Positions 35,949-45,138 of a DNA stretch of 64,000 nt are shown piece by piece (within the stretch, counting starts at the first letter, position 1; each line of letters opens with the position of its first letter). The notes under the pieces are model-generated. The model saw nothing but the letters and a program-made list of their open reading frames with translations, had not been told where the DNA came from and ran no database searches. This DNA is from Candidatus Cacconaster caballi. Its GTDB lineage: Bacteria; Bacteroidota; Bacteroidia; Bacteroidales; UBA932. Where the stretch lies: assembly GCA_018065695.1 (NCBI GenBank), contig JAGHST010000010.1:1-64000 (forward strand), in the 5' to 3' direction. Made by a program: the position numbers and the translations under genes.

Positions 35949-38453
35949 TTATTGCAATCTTTCGAAAGTATAACCTTTCTTCTTGAGATATTTCACTATT
36001 TCGTCCAGACGATTGTAGAGTCTTTCTGCCTGAGGTCTGGCTTCGACTATGCCCGGATGAATCAGCACGAGCGCTCCTGAAAGGCCCTCGCTCTTTTCGA
36101 ACTTGTAAAGTCCGTCTATAAGTGTCTGAGCGTCGCGGTAGTTCTTCATATCGGGCGTCGTATAGTCGGCAGGGGTGCCGATGCCCGGCGTATAGTTCAC
36201 GGTCTTCACCCCCATAGCATTGAGGACAGCCACGTTGGAGGCATTGTAATGCTCGTATGGGGGAAGGAACCACTGCGCTTTTTCACGGGTGATGCCATAG
36301 CGGCTGAGAGCCGCATAGTTTGCCTTGAGGTCACAGATAATGCTGTCAACACTCATCAGGTCGGCACGTTCCCCGCCCCAGTCACAGTAGAGGACGTGAT
36401 TGTCCGAGTGTCCTCCCACATAATGACCTTCCTTTACAATCTGCTCTATCACAGGCCTCTGCTCCTCACTTCTGAGGCAATTGCCCGTAAGGAAGAAATT
36501 CCCTTTTATCTTATGCTTCTTAAGAGTCTTGAGGATTGTAGGCGCACCGTTGAAATTGAGGTCTGCCGTAAAGCAGAGATAGATTTTCTTGTTTTCCGGA
36601 TCAACTCTCACAATGGCGCCGCGGTCGTCTTTCGTGAATGAAGCCGCCGCTTCCTGCTCGTGACCCTTCTGCTCCATTGCAGCAAAAAGGCAGGCAAGGC
36701 CGGCTGTGCCGTCCATTGTAGGTTCATTGCTTGCATAGTCGCCTATCTCGTCGTGATAGACGGCAATGCCGTTGTTGAGTACTGCGAAAGTGTCAGGCCT
36801 GGTCAGAGCGCCGCCAGCCCTCTCCTGGAAGAGAACATTGTAGATAGGGCCATCCACAAGTCCGCCGTATGGCAAACCGCCGTGCGGAGTGTAGGAGGAG
36901 TGAGGGTCCGAAGGGTGGTCGTATCCAGGCATCTGTGCGAAAGGAACGCCTGTAATCATCGTGGTGCCCCAAGGATTGCAGCCGAGGAGCCAGTCGCGCA
37001 GAGCGGCCTGCATCTCGTTGAAACTTGTATCGCCTGTAGCCTTTTCGTAGAGATATGCGTGGGTTGCGGCAGAAGAGGTAAGATTGTTCGAGCACCAGAG
37101 ATATGGAACTCCGTGGAAGAACGGTTCGTCGCCGGCTCTGTCCTTGAGGTCCTGGAGTCCCTGACGCATATAGCCTGCAAATTCTTTGCTGACAGCCTCA
37201 TCTTCTGAAGATGCCAGGAGGAAGTGTCCCAGATTGATGAAAGGATACCACTGGTAGTGGTGGTATTCCTTGCCCGGACCGCGGCCTCTCTCCATCCAAG
37301 GATTGACAGGTTCCAGTTCGCCCCAATAGGCTGCCTGCTGTTTCCAGTAGTCACCTTCTCCGAGAGAATACATCGTGGCGGCTGCGAGTTCAATGTCGTC
37401 AACCCAGGTATCCTCTTCATAGAAATATGGGGAAACGACGCACGCCGTCTGTGTGTTGCCCGGATATTCCAGAGCGAAATCGTATGCAGACTGAACCTTC
37501 CCCTTTATCTTTCTGGCGAACTCCGGATAGAATTCCTTCATCACGTCGGAGCCGAGAGCGAAAGTCGAAGCGAACTTGCCGGCAGCGGACGAAACACCGG
37601 TAGTGCGGTTCACCTTGTTCTTCGCCACCTGAGGCTTGCCTGTCACGAAATATACCGGGCGCCCCTTGCCCGGGCCGTACCCATAATCGACGCTGTCCAG
37701 ATACGGCATTCTGAAACCTGCGTGGTCGCGGTCATCCGCAATCTGATAATACATCTCCTTAGGTGCCGGATTCATCTTGTCGAGCCAGTCCAGACCCCAT
37801 TTCACCTCGTCAAGGATATCAGGGATGCCGTTGGAACCCGCCCTTCCGCGAGCGTCATAGCGATCCTTGAAGACACTCTTGTCCTTTGTGTATTTATAGG
37901 CAAAGGCCATCTGGTAGATGGTGGTGGAGGACGTGGTCATATACTGGAGATAGTCGGCTGCATCGTGCCATCCGCCCGTCACGTCGATATGTTCACCCGT
38001 GCGTTCAGGATGATATACTATATATCCATCGTCCTGATGGCAGAGATGGTCCGTGTAAGGATTGTCGCCACAGCGCTGCTGGCGCAGATAGACAAGAAGG
38101 TAGTCGGCCAGGCCGTCATATACGTCGGTGCCGATGCGGAAAACCGGGGATTTAGCCCCACCGCTGACGATGTAATAACTTCCCGGCTTCTTCAGCTGAG
38201 AGAAATCCAGTCTGTATGAACTCTTGAGAGCCCACTTCGAAGGGTCTGCCTTACGGCCTTCGCCTGTGAGGACAGTCTCGTCGGAGATTGCGTCATATAC
38301 CGTAAACAGGCCGTCGGTTACTTCGGTTGAAATCTGTACGGCCACTTTTATATCTTCCGGCAAATATCCTACCTGATTGACTCTCACCCAAGTCTGAGCA
38401 TTGAGTGTAATTGCCGAAATCACTGACAGTGCAAGGAGAAACAGTCTTTTCAT
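35949..38453 (-). CDS. Secreted glycoside hydrolase family 9 (cellulase N-Ig + GH9) fused to C-terminal polysaccharide deacetylase (NodB-like)
   Basis: Signal peptide; WVRVNQVGYLPEDIKVAV; GGWHDAADYLQY; SNEPTMDGTAGL; C-terminus IYLCFTADLNFNGAPTILKTLKKHKIKGNFFLTGNCL...GHYVGGHSDNHVLY. Confidence 0.9.
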   Translation of the reverse strand: MKRLFLLALSVISAITLNAQTWVRVNQVGYLPEDIKVAVQISTEVTDGLFTVYDAISDETVLTGEGRKADPSKWALKSSYRLDFSQLKKPGSYYIVSGGAKSPVFRIGTDVYDGLADYLLVYLRQQRCGDNPYTDHLCHQDDGYIVYHPERTGEHIDVTGGWHDAADYLQYMTTSSTTIYQMAFAYKYTKDKSVFKDRYDARGRAGSNGIPDILDEVKWGLDWLDKMNPAPKEMYYQIADDRDHAGFRMPYLDSVDYGYGPGKGRPVYFVTGKPQVAKNKVNRTTGVSSAAGKFASTFALGSDVMKEFYPEFARKIKGKVQSAYDFALEYPGNTQTACVVSPYFYEEDTWVDDIELAAATMYSLGEGDYWKQQAAYWGELEPVNPWMERGRGPGKEYHHYQWYPFINLGHFLLASSEDEAVSKEFAGYMRQGLQDLKDRAGDEPFFHGVPYLWCSNNLTSSAATHAYLYEKATGDTSFNEMQAALRDWLLGCNPWGTTMITGVPFAQMPGYDHPSDPHSSYTPHGGLPYGGLVDGPIYNVLFQERAGGALTRPDTFAVLNNGIAVYHDEIGDYASNEPTMDGTAGLACLFAAMEQKGHEQEAAASFTKDDRGAIVRVDPENKKIYLCFTADLNFNGAPTILKTLKKHKIKGNFFLTGNCLRSEEQRPVIEQIVKEGHYVGGHSDNHVLYCDWGGERADLMSVDSIICDLKANYAALSRYGITREKAQWFLPPYEHYNASNVAVLNAMGVKTVNYTPGIGTPADYTTPDMKNYRDAQTLIDGLYKFEKSEGLSGALVLIHPGIVEARPQAERLYNRLDEIVKYLKKKGYTFERLQ

Positions 38454-38463
38454 ATATTTTTCT

Positions 38464-40236
38464 TTATTTTATTTCAAGCATATAAGGGATGCGTGCCTCA
38501 ACTGCAGGTCCATTGATACCGGTAAGCCAGAGTGTGGCCTTCTGAACGGCATCCAAAGGGGCTTCCGAAGCCTTGGCACCGCTCTTCTGGAATTTCTCCA
38601 TAAAGCGCTCATACATTGTCTTCTCGACAGGGTACTCCACAATCTGATATTTATCGAGAGAAACTGCTGCGGCTGCATAGCTGACCGCATCGCTGAGGGT
38701 ACCTATCTCATCCACGAGTCCTATGCCAAGGGCATCTCCTCCGGCCCAAACGCGTCCTTGTGCTATTTCATCCACCGCCTCGACGCTCATATTGCGGCTG
38801 CCTGCCACAAGAGACGTGAATTTCGTATAGACGTCTTCAATCATATCCCGCATATATGCAGTCTCTTCTCCATCGAGAGGGAAAAATCCGTTGATGAGGC
38901 TTCCGTGTCTGTGTGTCGCCACTTCCACCATATTTATATGGAGGTTTTTCTTGAGCGCTCCGGAAAAACTCGGGATGAGGCCGAATACGCCGATGGAACC
39001 GGTGAGAGTGGTGCGGTCCGAAAAAATCTTGTCACAGGCGCAGCTTATCCAGTATCCGCCGGATGCGGCATAGTCACCATAGCTTGCCACAACAGGCTTG
39101 ACAGCCCTGAGAAGTTCTATTTCCCGCTGGATTATTGCTGAAGCCTGAACGCTTCCTCCCGGAGAATTGACACGGAAGACAACAGCCTTGACCGAACTGT
39201 CGCGACGGGCTTTTTCAATCTCCTTGGCAAAGGTGTCTCCGATATATCCGTCGGAACTGTCTCCCATTACAATTTCACCGTTTGCATAGATGACAGCTAT
39301 CTTGTCCTTTGTCTTATAGTCGGGTTTCACGGCCTTGGAAGCATACTCAGGCAGCGTGACGAACTTGAGTTCCTTCTCCTTCTCCACACCGGAAAGTGTG
39401 CAGAGGTATTCCACAACCTCATCGCGATACCACAATTCATCGACGAGGCCTTTTTCGCGTGCCGCTTCGACATTACCGATGGCAAGGTTGTCAATCCAGC
39501 CGTTCAGGTCGCTTTTCGAGAAATCTCTCGAAGAGCAGATGGCGTCTGCCAGAGCATCCCAGACGGAAAGGAGCATCTCCTCTGTCTGGCGGCGGTTCTC
39601 AGGGCTGATGTCGTTGCGTATGAAAGGCTCTCCGGCAGATTTGAACTTACCGTGGCGTATAAGCTGAATGTCGAGACCGAGCCTGTCGATGAGATCCTTG
39701 TAGAACATCATAGGGGATGAAAGGCCGCTTATCATAATGTCTGCATACGGATTTACAATCACCTTGTCGGCTACGGACGCCATATAGTATGACATAATGT
39801 CAACATACTGCAAATCAGCCACAATGGCCTTACCCTTGGCACGGAAGCGTGAAAGCGCCGTGCGGAACTCCTCGGCTGTAGCCAGACTCATATTGATCTG
39901 AGCGGGAGTCATATAGATATACTGGATGGAAGGGTCGTCGGCGGCCTTGTCTATAGCCTGAACGGCCTTGAACAGGGAAATGCTGCTGCTCACGTCGCTC
40001 GAAGTGCCGGTCATTCCCAGACTGAAATTGAAGGTCTCGGTTGACTGTTCGGTGACGGGGGTGGAGAAATCGATTTTGAGAATTGTGTTATTCCCTATCG
40101 CCACAGTCTCTTTCTCTCCTGCGGATAAGGAGGCGACAAGGGATCCGAGCATACCGATGCCGAGGAAAGTCAGAATAATGAAGGCGGCAATGCAGCCGAG
40201 CAGAGCGCCGAAAAAGATTTTCCAAAAAGTTTTCAT
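38464..40236 (-). CDS. sppA: Signal peptide peptidase SppA (67K type)
   Basis: MKTFWKIFFGALLGCIAAFIILTFLG...FRVNSPGGSVQASAIIQREIELLRAVKPVVASYGDYAASGGYWISCACDKI. Confidence 0.95.
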   Translation of the reverse strand: MKTFWKIFFGALLGCIAAFIILTFLGIGMLGSLVASLSAGEKETVAIGNNTILKIDFSTPVTEQSTETFNFSLGMTGTSSDVSSSISLFKAVQAIDKAADDPSIQYIYMTPAQINMSLATAEEFRTALSRFRAKGKAIVADLQYVDIMSYYMASVADKVIVNPYADIMISGLSSPMMFYKDLIDRLGLDIQLIRHGKFKSAGEPFIRNDISPENRRQTEEMLLSVWDALADAICSSRDFSKSDLNGWIDNLAIGNVEAAREKGLVDELWYRDEVVEYLCTLSGVEKEKELKFVTLPEYASKAVKPDYKTKDKIAVIYANGEIVMGDSSDGYIGDTFAKEIEKARRDSSVKAVVFRVNSPGGSVQASAIIQREIELLRAVKPVVASYGDYAASGGYWISCACDKIFSDRTTLTGSIGVFGLIPSFSGALKKNLHINMVEVATHRHGSLINGFFPLDGEETAYMRDMIEDVYTKFTSLVAGSRNMSVEAVDEIAQGRVWAGGDALGIGLVDEIGTLSDAVSYAAAAVSLDKYQIVEYPVEKTMYERFMEKFQKSGAKASEAPLDAVQKATLWLTGINGPAVEARIPYMLEIK

Positions 40237-40291
40237 ATTGTCATTATCGTTGATTGTCAAGAGCAGACGCCCACCGGAGGCAGGCATACAT

Positions 40292-40323
40292 TTTGCAAAT
40301 ATAACAATTATTCATTATTTTTG
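40292..40323 (+). promoter_or_regulatory. Promoter for the Cys/His-rich protein / TonB receptor cluster
   Basis: TTTG 40292-40295, TATTTTTG 40316-40323, 20-bp spacing; ATG at 40339. Confidence 0.65.
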
Positions 40324-40338
40324 CGAGAGGTGAAAAAG

Positions 40339-40686
40339 ATGGTCAGACAGATTTTTGCGATTTTTCTCATAGCCCTTTATCTATGCGGCTATGCGGAAGT
40401 CTGTGCTCATCACTGCAGCCATATGGAATGTGAATGCTTCCATTGCAAGCACTGCTACCACTTCCACTGCGACGACGGCTGCTGCAAAGCCTCCTACTCA
40501 CCCGCAGCCGATCAGGACTGCGGCGACGGCAGCGTGACGCTTCCCGAACAGGCTCAGCAATTTGTGGCCGTGGCCTGCGCCGACATCCCATCATCCGCCA
40601 TCCAATCCGACGTCATCAACTTCAGGATAAAGGCCCCACCACTTGCGGAAGCCGGAAACCCCATTTCATGCGTCAGGAGATTGTGA
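40339..40686 (+). CDS. Small exported Cys/His-rich protein (putative metal-binding), unknown function
   Basis: MVRQIFAIFLIALYLCGYAEVCAHHCSHMECECFHCKHCYHFHCDDGCCKASY; hydrophobic N-terminus; start placed downstream of the promoter. Confidence 0.75.
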   Translation: MVRQIFAIFLIALYLCGYAEVCAHHCSHMECECFHCKHCYHFHCDDGCCKASYSPAADQDCGDGSVTLPEQAQQFVAVACADIPSSAIQSDVINFRIKAPPLAEAGNPISCVRRL

Positions 40687-40756
40687 CGGTCCTCTTTTTT
40701 CCGCGCCTTCGAAGGCAGCGGACAGGACTTTCGTTACACAATCAAATCTAACGCAA

Positions 40757-42979
40757 ATGAAAAAATCAACTCTTACAATCATATCGCTGCTACTGTTCAC
40801 ATCGCTTTCAGCCCGGAATTTCACCGGGAAAATCTGGTATTCCAAACCGGGAGGAGCAACGGAGCCGCTACCGTTTGCACAAGTGTATTGGCTTGAACAA
40901 AAGATACTTGCAGATGCCGATGAAAATGGAGTATTCACTCTGGACATCAGTCATCCGGCCACTCTGGTAGCCACTTATGTGGGATATACCCGCGACACAG
41001 TGGTAGTGAATGAAGGAATGATGAGCGCCGATTTCTTCCTGACCGGAGAGAATGATATCGAACAGGCCGTCGTCACGGGCCGTCAGGCAGGATTGTCAAA
41101 GCTCAAGCCCATTCGGACAGAAGTCATAACGGCTGCCGGACTCTGCAAAATGGCCTGCTGCGCCCTTGCCGAAAGTTTCGAAAATTCCGCCAGCGTCACA
41201 GTCGGATATTCCGATGCCGTGACCGGCGCCCGCCAGATAAAACTTCTGGGCCTTTCCGGCACCTACACCCAGATGCTGGACGAAAACCGCCCCGTGATGC
41301 GCGGCATTGCGAGCCCGTTCGGAATGTCTTTCGTCCCCGGACAGTGGCTGGAGAGCATCCAGATAGCAAAAGGCCCTTCTTCAGTTATCAACGGCCTTGA
41401 AGCCATCACCGGGCAGATAAATATGGAACACCGCAAGCCGACGGACGAGACTCCGCTATTCATCCAACTCTACGGAAGTCTCGACAAGATGTTCGAGGCC
41501 AACGTGGCATCGGCTCTCCAGATAAATCCGAAGTGGAGCGTAATCAATATGGCCCACGTCGGGGGCTCCGTCTCCAATATGGACCACAACAAGGACGGAT
41601 TCCGTGACGAACCTGAAGATTTCAAGACTCTCTTCACCACCAGATGGCTTTACTATGCCCCGAGCGGCGTCCAGGTGCGCTTCGGCGGGCGTTTCATCTA
41701 CGATAACCGCCTTGGCGGACAGACCGGTTACCGTAGCCGGCTCAGTTCCTCTTCCGGCAATACCTACTGGGGTTCCGAAATCAAGAACAGGGGCGTGAAC
41801 GGATATCTCAAGGTCGGAATCCCCCTCAATACTGAAAACAGTGCCAACATTGCACTCGTGGCCGATTACACCTACCACGAGATGGACGCTCTCTTCGGCC
41901 TCCAGGAGTACGGCGGCACACAGCACTCCGTCTTCGCCAATCTCATCTACCAGAACGAAATCAACGAGCGCCACAAGATTGAAGCCGGCCTGACGTCGCA
42001 CTACGACAGGATAGATGAAACCGTACACGGCGCTTTCTGGAAAAAAGACCTTTTCCGCAACGAACCCGCATTCGCCGCATTCGGTGAATATACTTTCACC
42101 CTTGAGGACAAACTCACCTTCGTGGGTGGAGTGAACCTGGAATACAACTGCAACCACGGATGGCTTTTCGCACCACGAGCCAACGTCAAATACTGCGTGA
42201 CGGACAATATCGTCCTGCGCGCCCTCGGCGGCCGCGGCTACAGGACAGCCGGCATCTTCACTGACAATCTCGGCATATTCTCCACCAACTACAAAGTGGT
42301 GACGGCTCCCCACCTCGATCTGCTGGAGGACGCCTGGACATTCGGAGGCAACGCCACCTTCTATCTTCCTTTCGGAGTCGGAGAGGACAACACCTACATC
42401 AGTCTGGACTATTTCCGCAACAGTTTCAACAAGCAGGTCATAGTGGATCCGGAGGTGGTGAACAACACCTACAGCATCTACAACCTCGACGGACGCTCTT
42501 TCACCAACACCTGGCAGCTGGACTTCAACGTAGAACCCGTCGAACGCTTCACCATCACCGCCACAGCCCGATATACGCAGGCCAAGGTGAATCTGCAGAA
42601 TCAGGGACTGGTGGAAAGACCTATGACAAGCCGCTTCAAAGGCGTGCTGAACCTGCAGTATGCTACAGCGATGAACAGATGGACATTCGACTTCACCGCC
42701 CAACTCAACGGAGCGATGAAACTGCCGTCTTTCGCAGTCAGGCGCTGGGACAGGGACGAATCTCCGGTCTATCCGATGCTGTTTGCTCAGATTACCAGAA
42801 AATTCAGAGGCATAGACGTTTACGTCGGCGGTGAAAATCTGACGAACTTCCGCCAGAAGGATGCCATCATCGATGCGCAGTTTCCTTTCAGCCATTCGTT
42901 CAACGCCAGTTGCGTATGGGGCCCTCTGATGGGCATAAAAGTCTATGCCGGACTGCGTTACACTCTTTGGAAAATGTAA
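40757..42979 (+). CDS. TonB-dependent outer membrane receptor with carboxypeptidase-regulatory-like N-terminus
   Basis: MKKSTLTIISLLLFTSLSARNFTGKIWYSKPGGATEPLPFAQVYWLEQ...; plug region ...GLSGTYTQMLDENRPV...GPSSVINGLEAITGQINMEHRKP; terminal beta-barrel ending in W-K-M. Confidence 0.93.
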   Translation: MKKSTLTIISLLLFTSLSARNFTGKIWYSKPGGATEPLPFAQVYWLEQKILADADENGVFTLDISHPATLVATYVGYTRDTVVVNEGMMSADFFLTGENDIEQAVVTGRQAGLSKLKPIRTEVITAAGLCKMACCALAESFENSASVTVGYSDAVTGARQIKLLGLSGTYTQMLDENRPVMRGIASPFGMSFVPGQWLESIQIAKGPSSVINGLEAITGQINMEHRKPTDETPLFIQLYGSLDKMFEANVASALQINPKWSVINMAHVGGSVSNMDHNKDGFRDEPEDFKTLFTTRWLYYAPSGVQVRFGGRFIYDNRLGGQTGYRSRLSSSSGNTYWGSEIKNRGVNGYLKVGIPLNTENSANIALVADYTYHEMDALFGLQEYGGTQHSVFANLIYQNEINERHKIEAGLTSHYDRIDETVHGAFWKKDLFRNEPAFAAFGEYTFTLEDKLTFVGGVNLEYNCNHGWLFAPRANVKYCVTDNIVLRALGGRGYRTAGIFTDNLGIFSTNYKVVTAPHLDLLEDAWTFGGNATFYLPFGVGEDNTYISLDYFRNSFNKQVIVDPEVVNNTYSIYNLDGRSFTNTWQLDFNVEPVERFTITATARYTQAKVNLQNQGLVERPMTSRFKGVLNLQYATAMNRWTFDFTAQLNGAMKLPSFAVRRWDRDESPVYPMLFAQITRKFRGIDVYVGGENLTNFRQKDAIIDAQFPFSHSFNASCVWGPLMGIKVYAGLRYTLWKM

Positions 42980-42994
42980 TTTCAAAAAAATATC

Positions 42995-43324
42995 ATGAAA
43001 AAATTCCTTTCTATCATTCTCGTGGCGCTGATGGCCACGGTATCTTTCGAAGCAATGGCTCAGGACAAGCAGCAAAGCAGGCAGAAGGCCAAGGCCTCCA
43101 TTGAAGAAGTAACCTTCGTAACCACCATAGACTGCAAGAACTGCGTCAAGAAGGTGGAAGCCAACCTTCCGTACGAAAAGGGCATCAAGGATATGAAAGT
43201 GACCCTTTCCGACAAGACCGTATGGATCAAGTACGATGCATCCAAGACCGACAAGAAGAAACTTGCCGGAGCCATAAACAAGCTCGGTTACGAAGCCGTC
43301 GAGAAAGAGGATCCCGCACAATAG
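42995..43324 (+). CDS. Secreted heavy-metal-associated (HMA) domain protein
   Basis: Signal MKKFLSIILVALMATVSFEAMAQ; VTTIDCKNCVKKVEANLPYEKGIKDMKVTLSDKTVWIKYDASKTDKKKLAGAINKLGYEAV. Confidence 0.92.
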   Translation: MKKFLSIILVALMATVSFEAMAQDKQQSRQKAKASIEEVTFVTTIDCKNCVKKVEANLPYEKGIKDMKVTLSDKTVWIKYDASKTDKKKLAGAINKLGYEAVEKEDPAQ

Positions 43325-43341
43325 ATACCCGTAGTCCGGCA

Positions 43342-45138
43342 ATGAAGAAGTTACTCGCTTCCGTCTGCATCCCGCTGCTTCTGATTCAGTCCTCGCAAGG
43401 GCAGGAAGCACCTTCAGGTCAATGGGAAGGCAGCGCCAGTTTCGATATCGGGAGCAATTTCGTCAGGGATATGAGTTCCAGAACTTTTTCCCGCAGTTCC
43501 GGCAACGTTTCCGCCTGGGGAAAATACAGCACCGACAAATTCTCCATCAAACTGGACTTAAAGGGCCTCAATGAGTTCGCCGCTTCAACCCTCAGGGGAC
43601 GGACGCTGAACGTCAAGGACCCTGCTTCTCCCGAACTGAATATCGACATAATCCAGAAGGAGAAGTCGGTTCTGGAGGAGAAAACAGGAGTGCAGATGGA
43701 ATACAGGCCCGATTCACGGAACACTTTCTCATTCTCTGCCGGACAGAAGTTCGACAGGCAGTCTCCGGAACAGGCCGGCATCTCCATCACTCAGAGTTTC
43801 TCGGGAGACAATTACGAAACCCTGCGGGCTTCGTGCTCCTTCAACATCGAAGAGGTGTTGCAGAAAAGTTCGCTCTACAATGCCAAGGTCGGCTGGATTC
43901 ACAGATTCGAAAAGCCGGGCAGGGAGATGGAATCCTCCGCAGGTTGGGAACTCACCCGAATCGACAAGTCCTCAACCTGGTTCATTTCACCGGTAAGCGA
44001 TATCGATTTGGAAGAAGAGACGCAGAGCGGAGAGGAACCCGACCGCATATATAGAATCACTCCGGTTTCTGTCGGAAATGATTTCAGTGCATCGGTGCTC
44101 TATCGCGACAAGAACCTGTTCGGTCAGAAGAGCCTCAACCTCGAACTCGGGCTAATTTTCAAAGCAGGATTTGACAGGGACAGACTCTCAGCCGCCAACT
44201 ATAAGAATGAAATGTGGGTGGACAGTCTGGAATACCGCGAAAGCTTCCGTTTCGTCTCGCTTGAGGCTGTCCCGAAGGCGAAAATGTCTTACTCTCCGGA
44301 CAAATTCAGTGTAAGTCTTCAGCTGACACCGGATTTCTATGCCACCAAACTTGACAGTGAGCCGAATCTGGGCGAATTCAAATCCAGCAAGGTTGTCATC
44401 CTGCCGGACTTGAGCGCCCTATGGGCAATCTCCCCGAAGCACAACGTCGGAATCTCCTACAAGCAGAGCCTCACCCATCCGACATATCTGCAGCTCTGCT
44501 GGTTTCCGAGGACCGGCGACTATGAAAACGAACAACTGATGGGAAATCCCGACCTGAAGCCGAGCCTCAAAGGAAATGCATCTCTCTCATATACTTTCCG
44601 TTCAGGATTCTTCACCGCAAAACTGGAAGGGACATCCACGATTAATTGGGACAAAATAGAAAAGGTGTTCAACAACAAGGACGGATTCCGTGTATATACC
44701 TGGATTAACTCGGGACGCAGTTTGGACAACAGTGTAAAACTTTCGATGAGCGCCGCCGTGAAGAATTTCAAAGCCTCACTTGGAGGCTACTACAATCATT
44801 TCGCAGGATACAACAATGCCGGAAACGTGACACGAAGCTCCGACTGGGGAATGAACGCAGATGCCCTGCTCAAGGTCAGGGGAGGTTGGACATTCAGTGC
44901 CAAAGGAAGGTATCAGAGCAAAATAATACGTTCATACAGTTCCATCACCCAATATATCGGATGTGACGCCCGCGTGGACAAAGACTTCAGACGGTTCAGC
45001 ATATTTATCCAAGGGAAAGACCTGTTCGATCAGACGATAGAAGTCATCACCTACTCCGAGGACCACACTTACGCCCGCATAGAGGAAAATTTCTACAACC
45101 GGAGAATCTTTTCAGCGGGAATATCCGTCAAATTCTGA
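43342..45138 (+). CDS. Outer membrane beta-barrel protein (TonB-receptor-like barrel without plug)
   Basis: MKKLLASVCIPLLLIQSSQGQEAPSGQWEGSASFDIGSN...; repeated amphipathic strands, C-terminal ...RRIFSAGISVKF. Confidence 0.8.
   Translation: MKKLLASVCIPLLLIQSSQGQEAPSGQWEGSASFDIGSNFVRDMSSRTFSRSSGNVSAWGKYSTDKFSIKLDLKGLNEFAASTLRGRTLNVKDPASPELNIDIIQKEKSVLEEKTGVQMEYRPDSRNTFSFSAGQKFDRQSPEQAGISITQSFSGDNYETLRASCSFNIEEVLQKSSLYNAKVGWIHRFEKPGREMESSAGWELTRIDKSSTWFISPVSDIDLEEETQSGEEPDRIYRITPVSVGNDFSASVLYRDKNLFGQKSLNLELGLIFKAGFDRDRLSAANYKNEMWVDSLEYRESFRFVSLEAVPKAKMSYSPDKFSVSLQLTPDFYATKLDSEPNLGEFKSSKVVILPDLSALWAISPKHNVGISYKQSLTHPTYLQLCWFPRTGDYENEQLMGNPDLKPSLKGNASLSYTFRSGFFTAKLEGTSTINWDKIEKVFNNKDGFRVYTWINSGRSLDNSVKLSMSAAVKNFKASLGGYYNHFAGYNNAGNVTRSSDWGMNADALLKVRGGWTFSAKGRYQSKIIRSYSSITQYIGCDARVDKDFRRFSIFIQGKDLFDQTIEVITYSEDHTYARIEENFYNRRIFSAGISVKF

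Follow-up and report, generated by a model that had tools for sequence, protein, structure and literature searches.

A conserved head gene, TonB-dependent receptor and HMA protein in Bacteroidota: a candidate soft-metal uptake module with a possible translational sensor

What is the TonB-dependent receptor encoded at this locus likely to import, and which of its neighbors act with it? To our knowledge, the passage of copper and other soft metals across the Gram-negative outer membrane is poorly known, and only a few TonB-dependent transporters (TBDTs) have been established for it. The window (the whole 64-kb stretch of DNA that was analyzed) comes from Candidatus Cacconaster caballi, a gut member of the Bacteroidales, whose genome amounts to 1.38 Mb in 53 contigs and is ~81% complete. 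Four co-directional genes are located behind one promoter, all on the plus strand and separated by gaps of 70, 15, and 17 nt. The features of the region are as follows.

38464 to 40287, minus strand: sppA-like gene, divergent; a conserved neighbor outside the system, divergent upstream in 66 of 73 loci
40292 to 40323, plus strand: promoter TTTG-n20-TATTTTTG of the Bacteroidota housekeeping type, read in the sequence
40339 to 40686, plus strand: head gene for an exported Cys/His-rich protein of 115 aa, divergent HYC_CC_PP-like (profile match, landmarks, and position)
40688 to 40729, plus strand: RNA hairpin beginning 1 nt after the head-gene stop (MFE -21.1, z -2.51), at the same place in relatives
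40757 to 42979, plus strand: TonB-dependent receptor of 740 aa (CarboxypepD_reg-like, Plug, and barrel; domain matches and AF2 fold)
41141 to 41179, plus strand: plug motif LCKMACCALAESF with LCKMACC, residues 129-141; C134-C135 invariant, C130 often present
42995 to 43324, plus strand: secreted HMA protein of 109 aa (PF00403, 42 bits vs 24.8 cut-off), adjoining the receptor in 78 of 80 loci
43133 to 43144, plus strand: CKNC metal-binding motif of the HMA domain, position checked (DCKNC at residues 46-50)
43342 to 45138, plus strand: plug-less outer-membrane barrel of 598 aa (OMP_b-brl_3, PF14905, 95 bits)

The features that the initial annotation had read here were all found: the single promoter with four genes behind it, the head-protein motif HHCSHMECECFHCKHCYHFHCDDGCC, the cysteine cluster in the receptor plug, the secreted HMA protein with CKNC (its N-terminus is signal-peptide-like), and the barrel without an obvious plug, in which the domain search gave no Plug match. 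The likely start of the head gene is ATG 40339, giving a product with 13 Cys and 7 His; an alternative TTG at 40321 sits within the -7 element.

The promoter consists of TTTG (40292-40295), 20 nt and TATTTTTG (40316-40323). The pattern TTTG-n17..22-TAnnTTTG was detected upstream of 26 of the 60 head genes (relatives and window) and in 0.5% of dinucleotide shuffles, so it is no chance match. No metal-regulator box was seen by eye in these upstream regions, where the housekeeping promoter alone was recognized. The distance from the -7 element to the head-gene ATG is 15 nt in the window and merely 5 nt in many relatives (L034, L035, L037, L040-L043, L045, and L053 among them), so that the head-gene mRNA is probably nearly leaderless.

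The conservation of the gene order was analyzed in 80 receptor loci at the order level and in a phylum sample of 40 receptor loci from Bacteroidota, nearly all of other families. At the order level, an HMA gene was located downstream of the receptor, on the same strand, in 78 of the 80 loci, and a small Cys-rich exported head gene between the receptor and the sppA-like gene in 60. Some of the missing head genes are explained by truncated contigs and several intact loci truly lack one; in some of the relatives without it, receptor and HMA gene are kept intact. No homologue of the barrel was present at any of the 80 loci. Therefore, the conserved unit comprises the head gene, the receptor and the HMA gene, and the co-occurrence of four families that had been put forward for checking held for these three and failed for the barrel. 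In the phylum sample, the plug cysteine pair was recognized by pattern in 36 of the 40 loci, and L240-L242 were added by eye. The head gene was detected by profile in 28 of the 36, and an HMA domain was adjacent or fused in 18, being absent beside the other half. Head gene, receptor and HMA gene are a real module kept across Bacteroidota. No description of it as a unit was found in the literature on HYC_CC_PP, on HMA with TBDT in Bacteroidota and on copper in Riemerella, most subscription journals lying outside that scope.

Receptors without the plug pair were also tried as a negative control. This control failed and was given no weight, as three of the four turned out to have the pair, with other flanks and Cys-rich neighbors of their own. 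In L240 and L242, the genes upstream of the receptor include one for another kind of Cys-rich head protein, whose FWQPP[RQ]LA-stop ending places PP at its extreme end and may mark a second head type, and one for an HMA-like protein that is degenerate and has a single Cys.

The receptor was assigned by its Plug domain (PF07715, 31.4 bits), with a CarboxypepD_reg-like match slightly under the cut-off. Its AF2 model (pLDDT 87.7) has the TBDT fold, with Cir, ZnuD, PhuR, PirA, and BtuB as the nearest structures, and TonB is present. Homologues were detected in 146 of 149 genomes at E <= 1e-3, a count that includes distant TBDTs, and the orthologues in the genus are mostly 60–70% identical. The cysteines of the plug had been taken as unusual for this receptor; rather than an oddity of one genome they are a family signature, since C134-C135 was invariant in 81 of 81 order-level sequences and in 56 of 56 aligned homologues across the phylum, and a Cys pair is lacking at this position in 9gbc, the best PDB sequence-profile match. 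C130 was present in 20 of the 56 aligned receptors. By DSSP on the model, the pair lies in a short loop that links plug helices one and two, and from TBDT structures in general we infer that this loop faces the periplasm. Elsewhere in the receptor, an invariant D-x-N-x-D-G-F-x-D-x-P-like stretch (residues 267-286, 41555-41614) looks like a calcium-binding loop, with a conserved His beside it (H267, 55/56).

Apart from the protein encoded next to the receptor, no product of the window genome was found to carry an HMA domain. In the Bacteroidales of the order-level sample the HMA motif is D/H-CxxC. The receptors of L209, L223, and L233, and probably that of L232, carry one or two HMA domains fused at their own N-terminus; such a fusion is good evidence for a joint function. 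Phylum-level HMA proteins (L213, L223, L232, and L233 among them) share a motif of the G-x-C-x-M-C-K type, and the fused domains contain a GHDNE stretch and a C-terminal LPxCCxY motif, both absent from the HMA protein of the window.

The reading that we prefer, at roughly even confidence, is that of a three-gene soft-metal uptake operon, most likely for copper, with a translational sensor of its own. The metal-linked outer-membrane route put forward in the initial annotation is well supported by the HMA synteny (78/80), the three to four fusions, an operon that includes CopA, and the position of the head family at CusA and CopA. The receptor would import a soft-metal ion or chelate using the energy of TonB. 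Its plug thiols, located in the loop that joins the first two short helices of the plug, would accept the metal or give it up, and thiol exchange would pass it on to the HMA protein in the periplasm. Such a handover from plug to HMA is plausible.

Which metal is carried is probably answered by copper or another soft metal. In one locus of the same order (L206), the operon has the order head-receptor-HMA-CopA, CopA being a copper ATPase; elsewhere, the head family lies near CusA or CopA, and the closest solved relatives of the HMA domain are Cu ATPases and copper chaperones. Of 297 Bacteroidota sampled, 278 have CopA. However, a Cu-ATPase was absent from 24 of the 25 genomes of the genus of the window (G000-G024), and heme-copper oxidase (COX1) from all 25, so the need for copper is not obvious there. 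That the genome of the window yielded just one HMA domain likewise speaks against copper. The genus keeps receptor and HMA with little copper gear; the module thus outlives the usual copper equipment, and its persistence in a genus without a known copper client is a puzzle.

Accordingly, a system for a non-copper metal in these anaerobes, such as zinc, cobalt or nickel, is a credible alternative, although it is not the one to which we would give most weight. The near absence of CopA and the absence of COX1 in the genus favor it, as do the D/H-CxxC motif of the Bacteroidales HMA proteins and the presence of ZnuD among the folds nearest to the receptor. An Asp before CxxC is a feature of the Zn-type HMA domain of ZntA. 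The CopA gene within the L206 operon, the association of the head family with CusA and CopA in other loci and the copper proteins among the nearest solved HMA sequences speak against it. Some CutF-like proteins, a group compared with the head protein below, are thought to serve Ni/Co (PMC9973294), which also counts for a non-copper metal.

The preferred reading of a copper or soft-metal operon includes a sensor, and this part depends on the head protein. A direct sequence search with it in 101 genomes found itself alone, so synteny and profiles were used to collect its relatives. A profile from which it had been left out still gave it as the top match in the window (E 1.7e-4; strong compositional bias, 20.9 bits). 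The NCBIfam family NF047658 HYC_CC_PP was matched by 60 of 75 aligned head proteins at E <= 0.1; the near Bacteroidales head proteins scored 18.7–22.3 bits, under the 28-bit cut-off, and no match to NF047658 was obtained for the head protein of the window. The landmarks of HYC_CC_PP, H-x-C (here HHC), CC, and PP, are nevertheless present in it in order, with 52 residues from CC to PP, 16 from PP to the end and 68 from CC to the end. The family also leads CusA/CzcA efflux operons, at times with CopA nearby.

The residues and distances that are kept in this family were then compared with those that vary. C32, C54, and C55 are invariant. The CC-PP spacing is near-fixed (55.7 ± 2.0, n = 45, and 53.7 ± 1.2, n = 19; 52 in the window), within 52–57 at the order level and 51–61 in the phylum, whereas the HxC-CC distance varies widely (sd 7.7–13.8). 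At the order level, W was found at -3 in 52 of 59 C-termini and R at -2 in 46 of 59; in the phylum set the end is mostly F-L-I. The window protein reads KAPP, and its PP begins 16 residues before the end; a large order-level clade lacks PP and has PDSG in its place. By AF2, the signal helix alone is confident and the rest is predicted to be disordered.

The spacers between head gene and receptor were more stably folded than control spacers (mean z -2.56 vs -1.51, p 1e-4), although the controls are themselves structured, and the hairpin starts at 3 nt or less from the head-gene stop in 83% of the order-level spacers vs 55% of the controls; these statistics, like those of the spacings, come from related sequences and not from independent samples. 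Spacers before CusA were similarly structured, and terminator-like sites were no commoner than in shuffles. Very long inverted repeats, with stems of ~20 bp or more and z of -5 to -9, were observed in the head-receptor spacers of L093, L080, and L078, and are possibly inserted repeat elements.

The initial annotation had left the small protein as chaperone or sensor. Its fixed CC-PP spacing, conserved C-terminus, stop-proximal hairpin, predicted disorder and presence in front of both kinds of operon favor the second of these, and the protein looks like a cis-acting nascent-chain metal sensor rather than a chaperone; a family that leads both efflux and uptake operons is hard to fit to a dedicated uptake carrier and natural for a sensor. 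The head protein would be exported during its synthesis and bind metal via H-x-C and CC, and it would control the expression of the receptor in cis, the ribosome being slowed or released at the PP/C-terminal end beside the stop-codon hairpin. Under the alternative, which we regard as rather unlikely, the head protein is a stable, metallothionein-like periplasmic chaperone or buffer that feeds or protects receptor and HMA protein, and the hairpin acts in stability or attenuation, as is ordinary between cistrons. A strongly Cys/His-rich exported protein, with very His-rich inserts in some relatives, would suit this role, and stop-proximal hairpins are common between genes, as the mean z of the control spacers indicates. 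Yet the His-rich part is freely variable while the CC-PP and CC-stop spacings are fixed and the C-terminal residues conserved, and neither the efflux operons headed by the family nor the predicted disorder agrees with a stable carrier.

Returning to the uptake operon with its sensor, two further explanations of the receptor and its surroundings were considered. That the receptor is one for siderophores, heme or cobalamin, with the HMA neighbor incidental, is very unlikely: it shares the general TBDT fold with Cir, BtuB, and siderophore receptors, and weak NCBIfam siderophore-receptor matches were obtained far under the cut-off, but HMA synteny, HMA fusions and the invariant plug pair all stand against it. 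Least probable is a single metal system of all four genes, with the barrel as a second receptor or an export channel, because the barrel, although co-directional and only 17 nt away in this genome, lacks a homologue at every order-level receptor locus and its closest matches in the genus reach just 24–31% identity.

The fourth gene, which had been counted as part of the metal cluster, is by synteny a bystander, co-directional in this genome and not a conserved member. The genes beyond HMA (cellulase/deacetylase, oxidoreductases, and hisS) also look unrelated. A cellulase-like protein with a polysaccharide deacetylase-like C-terminal part is encoded at 35949-38453 on the minus strand, and in L063 a similar cellulase-like gene comes right after the receptor operon.

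More tentatively, the results may be extended to the phylum: HYC_CC_PP proteins and their relatives could be nascent-chain sensors of Bacteroidota, with an arrest or termination signature PP-n(12-16)-[FW][LR][ILV]-stop coupled to a stop-codon hairpin, that switch soft-metal import and efflux operons. From the import receptor, the metal would pass via the invariant plug cysteines to an HMA metallochaperone, which is part of the receptor chain in some species. If this is true, Bacteroidota, a major gut and marine phylum, would gain a receptor with an identifiable partner for metal handover, and the natural HMA-receptor fusions make this handover testable.

Among known systems, OprC, the copper TBDT of Pseudomonas (PMC8610252), resembles the module in its TBDT fold (6z91) and in the import of a soft metal proposed here. 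The cysteine pair sits elsewhere in the plug than the copper site of OprC, however; of the OprC-type CxxxM-HxM site, CxxxM is missing from the window receptor and present in one of 56 homologues, and the one HEM of the window receptor, at 374, is not conserved. HMA proteins of the MerP and CopZ type share PF00403 with CxxC, and differ in that the domain is here paired or fused with a TBDT; the window HMA protein scored below the NCBIfam cut-offs (26.9 vs 92.55 for MerP, 43–46 vs 91–95 for CopZ). NF047658 HYC_CC_PP has H-x-C, CC, and PP in common with the head protein, of which the window copy is a short and divergent form without a profile match.

The closest parallels in layout were found in Pseudomonadota, where CruR and CutF resemble the cis control proposed here. 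In the cruR-crtA(bfrG)-bp2921 operon of Bordetella pertussis, CruR, a DUF2946 upstream ORF, precedes a copper TBDT, and copper is sensed by the nascent CruR chain via CXXC and RAPP (PMC9426467, PMC12914433). Arrest of its translation has since been demonstrated in vitro (PMC12992588). As in the module, a small exported Cys protein with a C-terminal PP leads an operon with a TBDT. The differences are several: none of 75 head proteins matched DUF2946 (PF11162), PP lies ~16–18 residues from the end in the head family and 3 in CruR, a hairpin at the stop takes the place of a 162-nt Rho-dependent region, an HMA protein that of a PepSY_TM protein, and CrtA lacks conserved Cys whereas the module receptor has its invariant plug pair.

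In CutF-CutO of Rhodobacter capsulatus, the exported CutF senses copper by means of a Cys motif and a C-terminal PP, and a stem-loop precedes the target gene (PMC9973294); the head gene is alike in its cleavable signal, Cys metal site, C-terminal PP, and stem-loop before the target. The rules for CutF-like proteins are fewer than 150 aa, an N-terminal signal, PP in the last 15 residues and a co-directional gene within 1 kb (PMC9973294). On these rules, the window head gene has 115 aa, a signal-like helix, and a 70-nt gap, with PP at -16, just outside 15, and the hairpin at 40688-40729 supplies the stem-loop between head gene and receptor. That survey lists members from Bacteroidota, with OEP/CusA (RND) and TonB genes as frequent downstream neighbors, so the broad notion of head proteins of this kind in the phylum is not new (PMC9973294). 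The target in the module is an import receptor with HMA, and the head C-terminus is [FW][LR][ILV]-stop, both unlike CutF-CutO. According to PMC12992588, Bacteroidota have no upstream ORFs of the RAPP/RGPP type at copper-related genes. In this phylum, however, another head family of the same layout stands in front of both import and efflux operons; if the sensor reading is true, the head gene would fill this gap. The head family is filed here as one that would work like CruR and CutF without being a member of either, its C-terminal signature being different.
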